This document shows positions 2,674 to 22,810 of a stretch of 64,000 nt of DNA, piece after piece. The notes under the pieces were generated by a model that was not told where the DNA came from, did not search any database, and worked only from the letters and a program-made list of their open reading frames with translations. The position numbers were made by a program, and so were the translations under genes. Source of the stretch: Aerococcus viridans (GTDB taxonomy: Bacteria; Bacillota; Bacilli; Lactobacillales; Aerococcaceae); NCBI RefSeq assembly GCF_001543285.1, contig NZ_CP014164.1, positions 2,108,001 through 2,172,000 on the forward strand, given 5' to 3'. Position 1 is the first letter of the stretch. Every line of letters begins with the position of its first letter.

Positions 2674-3948
2674 ATGATGAATTCAACAATAAAGGTTGGT
2701 TACGCCTGCTTGAACCTAGACTTAGATCGAGGGTTTAAAACTTGTCGTTTTGCTAATTTAACTAATGAAAAATGGATTGAGTTAATTAGCTGGAATTTAG
2801 AAACACTTAAACAAATGTTGATTTACACTGCAGACCACAACATTCAAATGTTACGGTTATCAAGTGATTTAATTCCTTTTGCGACTAAGGATAAAGATGA
2901 GGTTGATTTAAACTGGCAGGTATATTTTCAAGATGAATTCGATGCACTAAAGAAGCTCATAAAGAATTTAGACATCCGCATATCCTTTCACCCTGGTCAA
3001 TATACTGTGCTAAATTCACCAAAGGAGGATGTAGTAGAGCGCGCAATTGCTGATTTGGATTATCATGCCGATTTGTTGGCGTTATTGGGCGGTGATCAAA
3101 GTAATAAAATGGTGATTCATATTGGTGGTGTGTATGGCGATAAAGACGCCGCAATTCAACGGTTTATTCAAGTAGCTAATAGCCTTTCTAGTAAGATTCG
3201 TCGTCATTTAATCATCGAAAATGATGAACGCTTATTTAATATTGAAGATGTCTTGTATATTAGTCAACTCACTCACTTACCTGTTGTATTTGATAACCTA
3301 CATTTCAATATATTAAAACCCGAAAATAGCCGTAGCATGAAAACCTATATTGAATTAGCTGGTCAAACTTGGACTACTAATGATGGTAGACAGGTTATAC
3401 ACTATAGCCAACAAGCATTAGGTAAAAAACCGGGTGCGCATACTAGAACGACCGCACTTGATCCATTTATCCATTTCATTCAAAATGAATTAAGTGGCCC
3501 TATTGATATCATGTTAGAAGTAAAAGATAAAAATCGGTCTGCAGAAAAAATCCAATTATATCTTGACCAAGATATTGGGGCCGCCGAAAAGTTATGGGCA
3601 CGTTATAAATATGACGTGATGGCAAAGTCTTTAAATATTTATCAAGCCATTAGAAACCTTTTAAAAGATAAAGAGCACACTGATTTTGAAGCCTTTATCC
3701 AATATCTTGAAACTGCTGAAAACTTACCAGAAGATATTGGTAATGAAATAAATGCTGGACAACATATTTGGGGATACTTTAAAAACCAAGCCACCGATAC
3801 TGAGCGTGGTAAGTTTAAACGCAATCAAGAAAAACTACAAAACCAAGAAATATCGATTACACAATTCCGTCGATACTTGAATCAATTACTGAAAAAGTAC
3901 CCAAATCCATATTTAGCTGACAGTATTTACTTCAAGCCATTCAAATAA
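2674..3948 (+). CDS. uvsE: UV-damage endonuclease UvsE fused to a C-terminal DUF1722 (YbgA-like) domain
   Basis: Residues 1-300 form a UVDE TIM barrel that nicks DNA 5' of UV photoproducts and other lesions. Visible metal-site motifs are RLSSD (61-65), SFHPGQY (104-110), HIGG (149-152), ENDE (182-185), DNLHF (207-211), GAHT (254-257) and MLEVKDKN (280-287). Classical UvsE is about 300-320 aa, and this protein is 424. The extra C-terminus (about 306-421) matches DUF1722: W308-A-R-Y-K312, QHIWGYFK (363-370) and KYPNPYL (408-414). DUF1722 is otherwise seen next to photolyase (ybgA-phrB) or fused to DUF523/TudS-type proteins. The start may be the second ATG (2677), which has better spacing from AAGAAGG. 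The UvsE call is secure; the function of the added domain is unknown. Confidence 0.88.
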   Translation: MMNSTIKVGYACLNLDLDRGFKTCRFANLTNEKWIELISWNLETLKQMLIYTADHNIQMLRLSSDLIPFATKDKDEVDLNWQVYFQDEFDALKKLIKNLDIRISFHPGQYTVLNSPKEDVVERAIADLDYHADLLALLGGDQSNKMVIHIGGVYGDKDAAIQRFIQVANSLSSKIRRHLIIENDERLFNIEDVLYISQLTHLPVVFDNLHFNILKPENSRSMKTYIELAGQTWTTNDGRQVIHYSQQALGKKPGAHTRTTALDPFIHFIQNELSGPIDIMLEVKDKNRSAEKIQLYLDQDIGAAEKLWARYKYDVMAKSLNIYQAIRNLLKDKEHTDFEAFIQYLETAENLPEDIGNEINAGQHIWGYFKNQATDTERGKFKRNQEKLQNQEISITQFRRYLNQLLKKYPNPYLADSIYFKPFK

Positions 3949-8698: not shown

Positions 8699-8920
8699 TT
8701 GGAGGTGCGAGAAAAGTCGTTAAGACTTGCACCCTTTTTTCACACTTGGCCGAGTTCGATTCTTGCACACTGACGTCAGATCTCGCACCCTTTTTAGTTG
8801 AGCTCGCCAGGGCAGACAGGTGTCCGCTTCAGAATAGTTTGTTTCACACTTTGTGTGATACGGCACTATTCTTCCATCGTCTCCTGTCTAAACGCCCTGT
8901 CTCACATCCTTTTTCTTAGT
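8699..8920 (-). repeat. Intergenic repeat array upstream of tsaB (GGGTGCRAG units plus hairpin element)
   Basis: Read on the minus strand, the region contains GGATGTGA, then the structured element at 8808-8899, then two copies of AAAAAGGGTGCRAG (plus positions 8783-8795 and 8727-8740). The same word recurs at 22800, 51320 and 51370. The last unit forms its own hairpin (GGTGCGAG with CTTGCACC) followed by a T run on the plus strand. No coding sequence is present. Confidence 0.6.
8808..8899 (-). ncRNA. Structured intergenic element, copy 1 (possible ncRNA or RNA-level repeat)
   Basis: A long hairpin built from four nested helices. P1 pairs CAGGGC (8808-8813) with GCCCTG (8894-8899). After a 4-base bulge, P2 pairs AGACAGG (8814-8820) with CCTGTCT (8883-8889). 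P3 pairs GAATAGT (8832-8838) with ACTATTC (8865-8871). P4 pairs TCACAC (8844-8849) with GTGTGA (8853-8858) around a 3-base loop. An 11/11-base internal loop separates P2 and P3. A second copy at 22709-22795 keeps the architecture with compensatory changes. No known RNA family was recognised by eye. Confidence 0.6.
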
Positions 8921-12769: not shown

Positions 12770-16168
<3,399 letters not shown>

Positions 16169-17381: not shown

Positions 17382-17525
17382 TATAGTTTTTCTATTGGTT
17401 CTATAATAAATAGTGTTGGTGAGAATTCATATTGAATCTCATTGACACTATTTTTGTGTACGCAAAAAGGACATGATATCCTTAATGCGTGTAAACCACT
17501 ACGAATACAGAAAGAAGGAAAAATC

Positions 17526-18866
17526 ATGTCCCATACATCTATTATAAAACAACTTTGCGGTATTTACGACAATAATATTGATATTACAATACCAAAATCT
17601 ATGCATCTGTTGCCACTTGAAAAGTATCATGAAATAAATCATTTCGTTTTACATGGGGTTCTTACGTACAAGCCTAAGGCTTGTATGCACTGTGGTGTAA
17701 AGAATACTGGTAATCGAGATATCATCAAACATGGCTTTAAACCAGCTATCATTCGATTACCGAACACAGCTACTAATCCTGTTTTACTTAAATTACAGAA
17801 GCAACGCTTTTATTGTAAACATTGTGCACAAACTTTTATCGCTGAAACACCATTAGTTGAAAAATTTTGCTGTATTTCTAAAACCATTAAAAGTCAAATT
17901 AGCTCCGAATTGGTTGAAACGCAATCTATGCGGTTAATCGCTAAACGTTATCATGTCTCTTCTCCAACAGTGGCCAGAACTTTAATGAAAGCAAGTATGG
18001 GACTATCACCTAAGGGAAATTATCTCCCGAATCACCTCGGTGTAGATGAGTTTAAATCGACTAATCGTGTAGCCAATGCGATGAGTGCTGTCCTTGTGGA
18101 CACGCATAATAGAAGGCTAATTGATATTGTCGTTGATAGAAAACAAGCGTCGCTCATCGATTACTTTTCTTCTTTTACCTGGACTGCTCGAAGCAGCGTG
18201 AAGACAGTTTCGATTGATTTATATACACCTTATCTAGAGGTCATCCGCACATGTTTCCCTAATGCGAAGATTGTCATTGATCGATTCCATATAGTAAAGC
18301 TGTTGAATGAAACAATCAATTCTATTCGTATTAAAGTGATGAATGCTATCAAAACAAGCCGTCCATCGGACTACAATAAACTCAAAAAACAATGGAAATT
18401 GTTGTTAAAGAACGCTGAAGATTTAAATTTCACGGATACACATTATGTTCGTCAATTTGGTGAAGCGATATCAGAACAACGTATTGTTGATTATCTTTTG
18501 AGTATCTCACACGAACTTTTAGTTACTTATACCCTGATGAATGAACTAAAATATGCCATTTCAACTCATGATATCAATATTTTCAATGAAATCCTACGTG
18601 GGACTAAGAACCAAACTTTGCCAAGTCGTACGAGAAGAACTATCAGAACATTAGCCAAATTCTTGCCTTATATACATAACGCTTTAAAATATACTGTATC
18701 AAATGGTCCTACCGAAGGTATTAATAATAAAATTAAATTAATTAAACGAACAGGTTTTGGATATTCGAACTTCCATCATTTACGTGCAAGAATTTTAGTC
18801 CAATTCAAATTAAATTACAAACCATCCAATCCTAAACCTTATACATTTGATGGGATGGCAAGCTAA
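17526..18866 (+). CDS. ISL3-family transposase, copy 1
   Basis: A DDE transposase of 446 aa when started at the ATG at 17526, which has AAGGA six bases upstream; the frame is open from 17442, but that start has no such site. The N-terminus carries two Cys-pair zinc-finger motifs (CMHCGVKN and YCKHCAQTF) and a helix-turn-helix around SMRLIAKRYHVSSPTVART. The DDE core includes LGVDEFKS, VSIDLYTPY and the C-terminal GPTEGINNKIKLIKRTGFGY block. It differs at scattered residues from the copy at 57999, so the two insertions are not freshly duplicated. The gene appears intact. Confidence 0.94.
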   Translation: MSHTSIIKQLCGIYDNNIDITIPKSMHLLPLEKYHEINHFVLHGVLTYKPKACMHCGVKNTGNRDIIKHGFKPAIIRLPNTATNPVLLKLQKQRFYCKHCAQTFIAETPLVEKFCCISKTIKSQISSELVETQSMRLIAKRYHVSSPTVARTLMKASMGLSPKGNYLPNHLGVDEFKSTNRVANAMSAVLVDTHNRRLIDIVVDRKQASLIDYFSSFTWTARSSVKTVSIDLYTPYLEVIRTCFPNAKIVIDRFHIVKLLNETINSIRIKVMNAIKTSRPSDYNKLKKQWKLLLKNAEDLNFTDTHYVRQFGEAISEQRIVDYLLSISHELLVTYTLMNELKYAISTHDINIFNEILRGTKNQTLPSRTRRTIRTLAKFLPYIHNALKYTVSNGPTEGINNKIKLIKRTGFGYSNFHHLRARILVQFKLNYKPSNPKPYTFDGMAS

Positions 18867-22560: not shown

Positions 22561-22810
22561 GACCATGGCTAAGGACGGTCCCACTGCATTGAAGGCAATG
22601 ATAGGAAGTGTATAGCCGAGGCTAAATAACTCTGAAATCGAGCGCAAGAAGGCAGAAGCCAAAGTCGAGTAATAACTTTCTAAATTTGCACTATAGTCGG
22701 GCTCACTCGACCAGCTCAAGTCCACTTCAGACTATGTTGCATCACACTTCGTGTGATACTACCATAACCTTCCAGTGTTTTTGAGCTTAGCGGTCTCGTT
22801 CGCACCCTTA
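22561..22810 (-). repeat. Hairpin-rich intergenic repeat region between ilvA and the ABC exporter
   Basis: This non-coding stretch holds several hairpins (for example CATTG-AAGG-CAATG and TAGCC-GA-GGCTA) and the structured element at 22709-22795. The word TCGCACCCTTA is at 22800-22810. It shares CGTCCTTAGCC and TGAAATCGAG with the ISL3 tail, which may point to related repeat material. No coding sequence was seen here, nor in 22843-23005 apart from a hairpin with TAGATTGC arms near 22890. Confidence 0.45.
22709..22795 (-). ncRNA. Structured intergenic element, copy 2 (possible ncRNA or RNA-level repeat)
   Basis: It has the same architecture as 8808-8899. P1 pairs GACC (22709-22712) with GGTC (22792-22795). 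After a 4-base bulge, P2 pairs AGCTCAA (22713-22719) with TTGAGCT (22781-22787). P3 is GACTATG (22730-22736) with CATAACC (22763-22769), and P4 is TCACAC (22742-22747) with GTGTGA (22751-22756). P3 pairs fully only as minus-strand RNA, where two positions become G-U; on the plus strand they are A-C mismatches. Internal-loop sequences match copy 1. Confidence 0.6.

Follow-up and report, generated by a model that had tools for sequence, protein, structure and literature searches.

A dispersed family of structured intergenic repeats in Aerococcus and other Lactobacillales, a candidate RNA element of mRNA 3' ends

Introduction

REP elements are short palindromes with a fixed tetranucleotide, and the attC sites of integrons, which lie after stop codons, are imperfect hairpins, bounded by RYYYAAC ... 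GTTRRRY ends, in which the stems vary and the bulges are kept. In the consulted parts of PMC12306157, the REP and BIME sequences of enterobacteria, which are associated with RAYT transposases, are presented as dispersed structured intergenic repeats, some of which lie close to stop codons, and Liang et al. (2015) are cited there for the finding that REPs in E. coli lower translation when located less than 16 nt from the stop codon, and only then. Regarding Lactobacillales, the BOX and RUP sequences of Streptococcus pneumoniae are intergenic structure-forming repeats of approximately 100 bp, and Efa-1 of Enterococcus faecalis is listed as a type I repeat of 163 nt with two adjacent stem-loops and 65 copies (18) (PMC2267715, consulted parts including Table 3). 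The L17 downstream element (RF01708) is an RNA motif of Lactobacillales and Listeria (PMC2864571, consulted parts).

The window analyzed in the present study, a stretch of 64,000 nt from Aerococcus viridans (NZ_CP014164.1, positions 2,108,001 to 2,172,000), holds two copies of an intergenic element that belongs to a dispersed family. Similar to REP and BIME, this family consists of dispersed structured intergenic repeats, some of which are close to stop codons; however, its units of approximately 117 nt have several helices, a purine core, and free stems, and are arranged head to tail. The family is not assigned to the REP/RAYT system because its units are not short palindromes and no Y1 transposase of the RAYT type (Y1_Tnp, PF01797) was found in six copy-rich genomes (G001, G002, G010, G012, G013, and G014, each with at least 46 copies). 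It is set apart by description from BOX and RUP, which are similar in size, in that its stems share no sequence across genera and its arrays tend to begin at stop codons. The L17 downstream element, by its name, is also located downstream of a gene, and the Rfam scan gave no match between it and the units.

Structure and Covariation of the Unit

Copy 1 is located 110 nt beyond the stop codon of an MFS gene and ahead of tsaB, and no promoter was detected near it on the sense strand in a consensus scan. The features of the two window copies are as follows.

8795..8910, minus strand: copy 1, complete unit of 116 nt, scoring 123.3 bits with model R1, the training set of which includes copy 1
8796..8802 (3' arm) and 8905-8910 (5' arm), minus strand: basal helix P0 of copy 1
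8894..8901 (5' arm) and 8806-8813 (3' arm), minus strand: helix P1 of copy 1
8883..8889 (5' arm) and 8814-8820 (3' arm), minus strand: helix P2 of copy 1
8876-8879 with partner 8825-8828, minus strand: short covarying helix of copy 1
8873-8875, minus strand: conserved GGA of copy 1, directly after the 5' arm of the short helix and opposite GA at 8829-8830
8865..8872 (5' arm) and 8831-8838 (3' arm), minus strand: helix P3 of copy 1
8844..8858, minus strand: apical hairpin P4 of copy 1, TCACAC AAA GTGTGA
8700..8794, minus strand: degenerate or truncated unit fragments 3' of copy 1, towards the start of tsaB
22694..22808, minus strand: copy 2, complete unit of another stem type, with G-U pairs in P3
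22821..22842, minus strand: intrinsic-terminator-like hairpin just upstream of copy 2, tail TTTTTTTGTT

The four-helix fold that the first-pass annotation had proposed for both copies was borne out by folding against 200 shuffles each. The minus strand of copy 1 forms one long imperfect hairpin of -42.4 kcal/mol (shuffle mean -24.2, z -5.57), and copy 2 has a z value of -5.22, with no shuffle being as good in either case; since the unit is a near-palindrome, the plus strand of copy 1 folds equally well (z -5.67, 0/200 shuffles as good). Helices P2 and P3 stay paired between the two copies despite changes on both sides, as had been noted, and P3 of copy 2 contains two G-U pairs on the minus strand that read A-C on the plus strand, which favors the minus strand as the RNA sense. 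The extent originally given, 8808-8899, was too short, because the unit has an extra basal helix (GGR(U)GY / RCYC) carrying a covarying R-Y pair (GC in 13 and AU in 7 of the 20 own-genome units), and the presumed single 11/11 internal loop contains a short covarying helix of 3-4 pairs (alignment columns 35-38 with 92-95). The near-invariance ascribed to the internal loops does not extend to whole loops, but does apply to the constant unpaired bases within UGGA opposite GAA, which are the most constant core of the unit. That ascribed to P4 (TCACAC) is true of both window copies and some others, whereas P4 varies in further units.

The 5' half of the unit follows the plan AGGRTGYGAG - P1 - CG(bulge)AG - P2 - short helix - UGGA - P3 - P4, and the 3' half P3' - GAA - short helix' - P2' - CTG - P1' - CGARCYCRACTA. 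The units of one array, each approximately 117 nt in length, share this plan with different stems.

A hand-made structure of 40 pairs gave 91.1% standard pairs in the 20 own-genome units, with 27 pairs changed on both sides. A broader alignment covered several genera with 63 diverse units; the other 17 of the 80 representatives, being divergent or degenerate, were omitted, and the pairing percentage is higher as a result. In this alignment, 88.8% of the paired cells of a 39-pair structure were standard and 37 of the 39 pairs were changed on both sides, while 500 shuffles of the same alignment gave 58.9% and 32.0 pairs. Cells changed on both sides numbered 763 versus 249 in the shuffles, these covariation counts being inflated by kinship among the sequences; slid registers reached at most 44.8% standard pairs, 30 pairs, and 270 cells. 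RNAalifold, unaided, returned 28 pairs, 27 of which had changes on both sides. Since stems with almost no letters in common across genera surround an unchanged UGGA/GAA core, there is little doubt about the structure.

The first-pass annotation had regarded the element as a selected structure outside known RNA families, and had named a loss of P2/P3 pairing in further copies and a hit to a known family as observations against it. Neither was made. Pairing is kept in further copies (43 strong ones in the genome and the 63 diverse aligned units), and Rfam 15 (4227 families) gave no match in the window at the gathering threshold. In seven related loci, searched at E values up to 1, nothing credible was found over a unit, the best being a cspA match that was sub-threshold and located outside the L128 unit. 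The view of a selected structure outside Rfam is, thus, supported. A search of the literature on Aerococcus and Lactobacillales by titles and abstracts yielded no description of the family, nor did the consulted portions of PMC2267715, PMC2864571, PMC11109978, and PMC12306157, the Efa-1 entry aside; based on this search and on Rfam, the family is apparently undescribed. A group II intron derivative was also considered and rejected, with no Rfam match and no reverse transcriptase (PF00078, RVT_1) in the own genome (G000), the GUGYG start being a superficial likeness.

Regarding the acting strand, G-U pairs outnumbered A-C pairs by 55 to 14 in P1, P2, the short helix, and P3 of the 63 units, and by 42 to 14 without the column richest in G-U. 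A second, differently anchored count gave 93 versus 29 in 105 of 142 units, 29 unparsed units and 8 under the pairing threshold being left out. The basal helix had no such bias (15 versus 19, or 8 versus 7 minus one doubtful column, in the 63 units). No firm p-value is given for these counts because the cells are mutually dependent. Double-stranded DNA alone predicts equality, and, thus, the excess of G-U points to a single-stranded nucleic acid with the strand of the gene in front. Judging from this pattern in the sequences, RNA appears to be a likelier acting form than single-stranded DNA.

A comparison of 12 sites between close species revealed few compensatory changes in place, and units were mostly either near-identical or of wholly different types, some showing approximately ten scattered changes. 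The covariation is therefore considered to reflect old stem types and their swapping. In one orthologous pair, the apical half was equal and both basal arms were of another type. The unit at L014 1887-2004 has two basal arms of apparently different types with poor pairing between them, which recombination between units predicts.

Position Relative to Stop Codons and Terminators

The position of the arrays was examined in a set of 171, comprising the units of alignments A3, A4, A6, and A7 (A7 being the best 150 of 181 matches) with duplicates and arrays less than 300 nt from a locus end omitted. The array start was within 10 nt of a same-strand stop codon in 93 of the 171 arrays, and between -2 and +5 in 78, whereas the mirrored control, in which array 3' ends were compared with converging stops, gave 2 of 171. 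The stop codon was located 6-9 nt inside the unit in nine arrays. There was no stop within 10 nt in 78 of the 171 arrays, which counts against the reading as a 3'-end element. In the first set, the gene in front was on the same strand in 58 of 76 arrays and on the opposite strand in 17. Terminator-like hairpins within 200 nt on the array strand followed 60 of 181 arrays and preceded 8; on the other strand, they preceded 7 and followed 44, the latter also counting against a 3'-end reading. Both window copies are exceptional in that neither adjoins a stop codon and copy 2 follows a terminator-like hairpin. One of the three units in L305 from Aerococcus tenax (CP127381) is located just past a stop codon. 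Two of these three (3000-3120 and 1171-1287) are antisense to annotated neighboring genes, which is against the 3'-end reading.

Two further arrangements with terminators were observed. At the array ends in L329 and L307, the last partial unit has seemingly turned into a hairpin followed by T residues, namely, an intrinsic terminator derived from the 5' arm of a unit. L125, L311, and L128 have an antiterminator-like arrangement, in that the terminator downstream has a 3' arm (TTTTGTCCC) with full or near-full complementarity to the unit's 5' arm (GGGACAAAA or GAGACAAAA).

Our main reading, to which we assign a probability of approximately 0.5, is that the family is a mobile, REP-like RNA element of mRNA 3' ends that is mostly inherited in place, sometimes newly spreading, and acting in cis. 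The unit would be transcribed with the gene ahead and fold into an imperfect hairpin of approximately 117 nt, typically between the stop codon and terminator. Its stems may take almost any sequence, and the parts preserved are the basal helix, the UGGA/GAA core of purines, and a small bulge. A fold that begins at the stop codon is expected to meet the terminating ribosome and, by analogy with REP in E. coli, may also meet 3'-to-5' exonucleases; in this way, the unit would modulate termination, the release of ribosomes, and the decay of the mRNA. A host protein probably binds the kept core, and copies may spread through recombination at terminators together with the gain and loss of unit lengths in arrays.

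Copy Number and Taxonomic Range

Blast of copy 1 against its own genome gave 24 places at E values up to 10, many of which are head-to-tail units of approximately 117 nt, and model R1, built from 20 own-genome units, gave 45 places at E values up to 1, with 43 at 5.3e-6 or better. Among 15 genomes of the same genus, with the best 61 candidates per genome being scored, 11 had at least 20 matches and four had none, two of these four being 85% complete; the function of the family is, thus, dispensable. Under the stricter filters used in surveys of more than 40 genomes, model R2 matched 46 of 76 Aerococcaceae genomes (best 48 candidates per genome scored) and, in a sample of Lactobacillales, 84 of 345 genomes from seven families (best 10 candidates per genome scored). 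In a phylum-wide sample, for which the best 9 candidates per genome were scored, the own genome was the sole positive of 398 and none of the 397 others matched, these negatives including two or more further Lactobacillales genomes. Copies per genome ranged between one and at least 74, with single matches in G070, G075, G077, and G085 among the best 48 candidates scored in each.

Named hosts with loci matching the model are Aerococcus species, Trichococcus palustris, Atopobacter sp., Globicatella sulfidifaciens, and a record labeled Streptococcus sp. A strong unit (L233, 6253-6373, 91.6 bits) is found in a record titled Streptococcus sp. 263_SSPC. A pattern search hit 97 stretches, 80 of which were listed; among those listed, L227 and L277 (genomes of other phyla) and L243 (Liquorilactobacillus) gave no model match and were attributed to chance. 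Plasmid searches gave no match for the window unit or for L307 (G171), and one record from Aerococcus tenax, with three units by the model, for a unit of G201, which had no match among phages. L309 (G304) gave 51 plasmid records (50 from Enterococcus and one from Lactococcus) at 60-80% identity, none of which covered 80% of the query. The family is not claimed for Enterococcus because the two of these plasmid stretches that were inspected, both from Enterococcus with approximately 73% similarity to a unit of G304, gave no match to model R2 at E values up to 1.

Mobility and Alternative Explanations

The genome G201 contains ten near-identical longer copies that consist of a unit, a spacer, and an intrinsic terminator, with a total length of approximately 172 nt. 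Eight of the ten are preceded by a stop codon of their own strand, at -7 to +21, and one has compensating changes in the terminator stem. Six site comparisons were attempted in two relatives, and the three that were clean with both flanks aligned, all in G058, revealed a terminator that was ordinary-looking by eye where G201 has the element between A-rich and T-rich arms. Since near-identical terminator-bearing copies occupy sites with plain terminators in a relative, the element moves in this lineage; no target-site duplication was seen at the G201 copies in place of terminator stems. G025 has near-identical dispersed copies with a similar layout and a different terminator. Compared by description only, the length and double hairpin of Efa-1, as given in the part of PMC2267715 consulted, would fit this composite of G201. 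Efa-1 may be a relative, and part of the family would then be an old uncharacterized sighting, although this is a guess.

In the genus of the window, change is mainly by whole units. Arrays contain up to five tandem units, and G007 precisely lacks two units of two G000 arrays while retaining the truncated last unit. An array ended in a 5' fragment of a unit in 77 of 188 cases, versus 2 in the control stretch. A polarity of arrays, with older units farther from the stop, was not significant: among the 43 arrays with more than one unit, the first outscored the last in 28 (p 0.10 by the Wilcoxon test, scores transcribed by hand). Of 13 sites retrieved from G003, a close genome, 11 retain a unit of unchanged orientation. 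G013 has the copy 1 unit without a single difference, next to an upstream flank of only 85% identity; the unit is absent from G007, and G003 has other remnants in its place. The counterpart locus in G003 (L336) has an inverted remnant of another unit type ahead of tsaB.

A serious rival, although we doubt it, is that the family is a MITE- or REP-like mobile repeat, non-autonomous and purely selfish, in which the hairpin, as RNA or single-stranded DNA, is the target of an enzyme and gene 3' ends are safe sites with no gain for the host. The near-identical dispersed copies in G201 and G025 fit this explanation, as do the patchy presence among Aerococcaceae (46 of 76 genomes) and the degenerate copies and partial units; however, the orientation and stop-codon precision (93 versus 2 of 171) exceed what the avoidance of genes by safe sites predicts, and the retention at 11 of 13 sites in G003 also speaks against it. 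Neither of the two enzymes looked for is a constant companion: Y1 transposase matches in 35 and reverse transcriptase matches in 31 of the 76 Aerococcaceae genomes did not track copy number, and Y1_Tnp and RVT_1 were rejected in this role because G010 (at least 48 copies), G012 (at least 48), and G013 (46) have neither. As these three genomes lack both, neither enzyme is needed to keep the family, and it is possible that one or the other acted on it in the past. The data on spreading could be accounted for without a dedicated enzyme, through recombination between units and at terminators. Y1_Tnp of the IS200-like type has 17 matches in G000 and none in ten of the 14 other same-genus genomes compared, the counts differing widely.

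We consider it improbable that the arrays serve as a sponge, offering many binding cores to an RNA-binding protein, or that stable small RNAs acting in trans are cut from the mRNA. The kept UGGA/GAA core among free stems, the tandem arrays of up to five units, and the resemblance of the unit-terminator composite of approximately 172 nt to a small RNA with its own terminator are in line with such roles, whereas a range from one to at least 74 copies, including genomes with single matches, fits a dosage-controlled regulator poorly. An attC-like recombination site in single-stranded DNA, with a recombinase recognizing the kept bulges, is very improbable even though the units, like attC sites, tend to follow stop codons and form imperfect hairpins in which extrahelical bases are kept and stems vary freely, because the R''/R' end pair was not seen by eye in the 63-unit alignment (the ends being AGGRTG ... 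CYCRACTA, with a one-arm likeness in CCCAAC variants only), the units are in tandem without genes between them, gene order is conserved in the one stretch compared at length, and the G-U bias fits RNA, although single-stranded DNA also tolerates G-T.

Returning to the reading as a cis-acting element of mRNA 3' ends, genomes of Aerococcus and of some relatives would carry one apparently undescribed RNA module at dozens of sites, often exactly at the stop codon, and its kept core invites a search for a single binding partner. The large natural set of variants with a common shape and no common sequence provides a test of how structures after the stop codon affect termination and decay, and the family is also a case of a structured repeat replacing terminators. 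More tentatively, it may represent a new class of RNA-level mobile element for mRNA 3' ends, namely, a stem-swapping RNA of approximately 117 nt defined by its shape and UGGA/GAA core, which would home between stop and terminator, replace terminators in some lineages, multiply in tandem, and have been adopted by hosts as a general regulator of termination and decay across Lactobacillales.

Two other features of the window were observed. On the minus strand at 12770-14092, two adjacent open frames of 110 and 324 aa resemble one gene interrupted near 13102-13118, and on the plus strand at 17442-18866, an open frame of 474 aa encodes an ISL3-family transposase.
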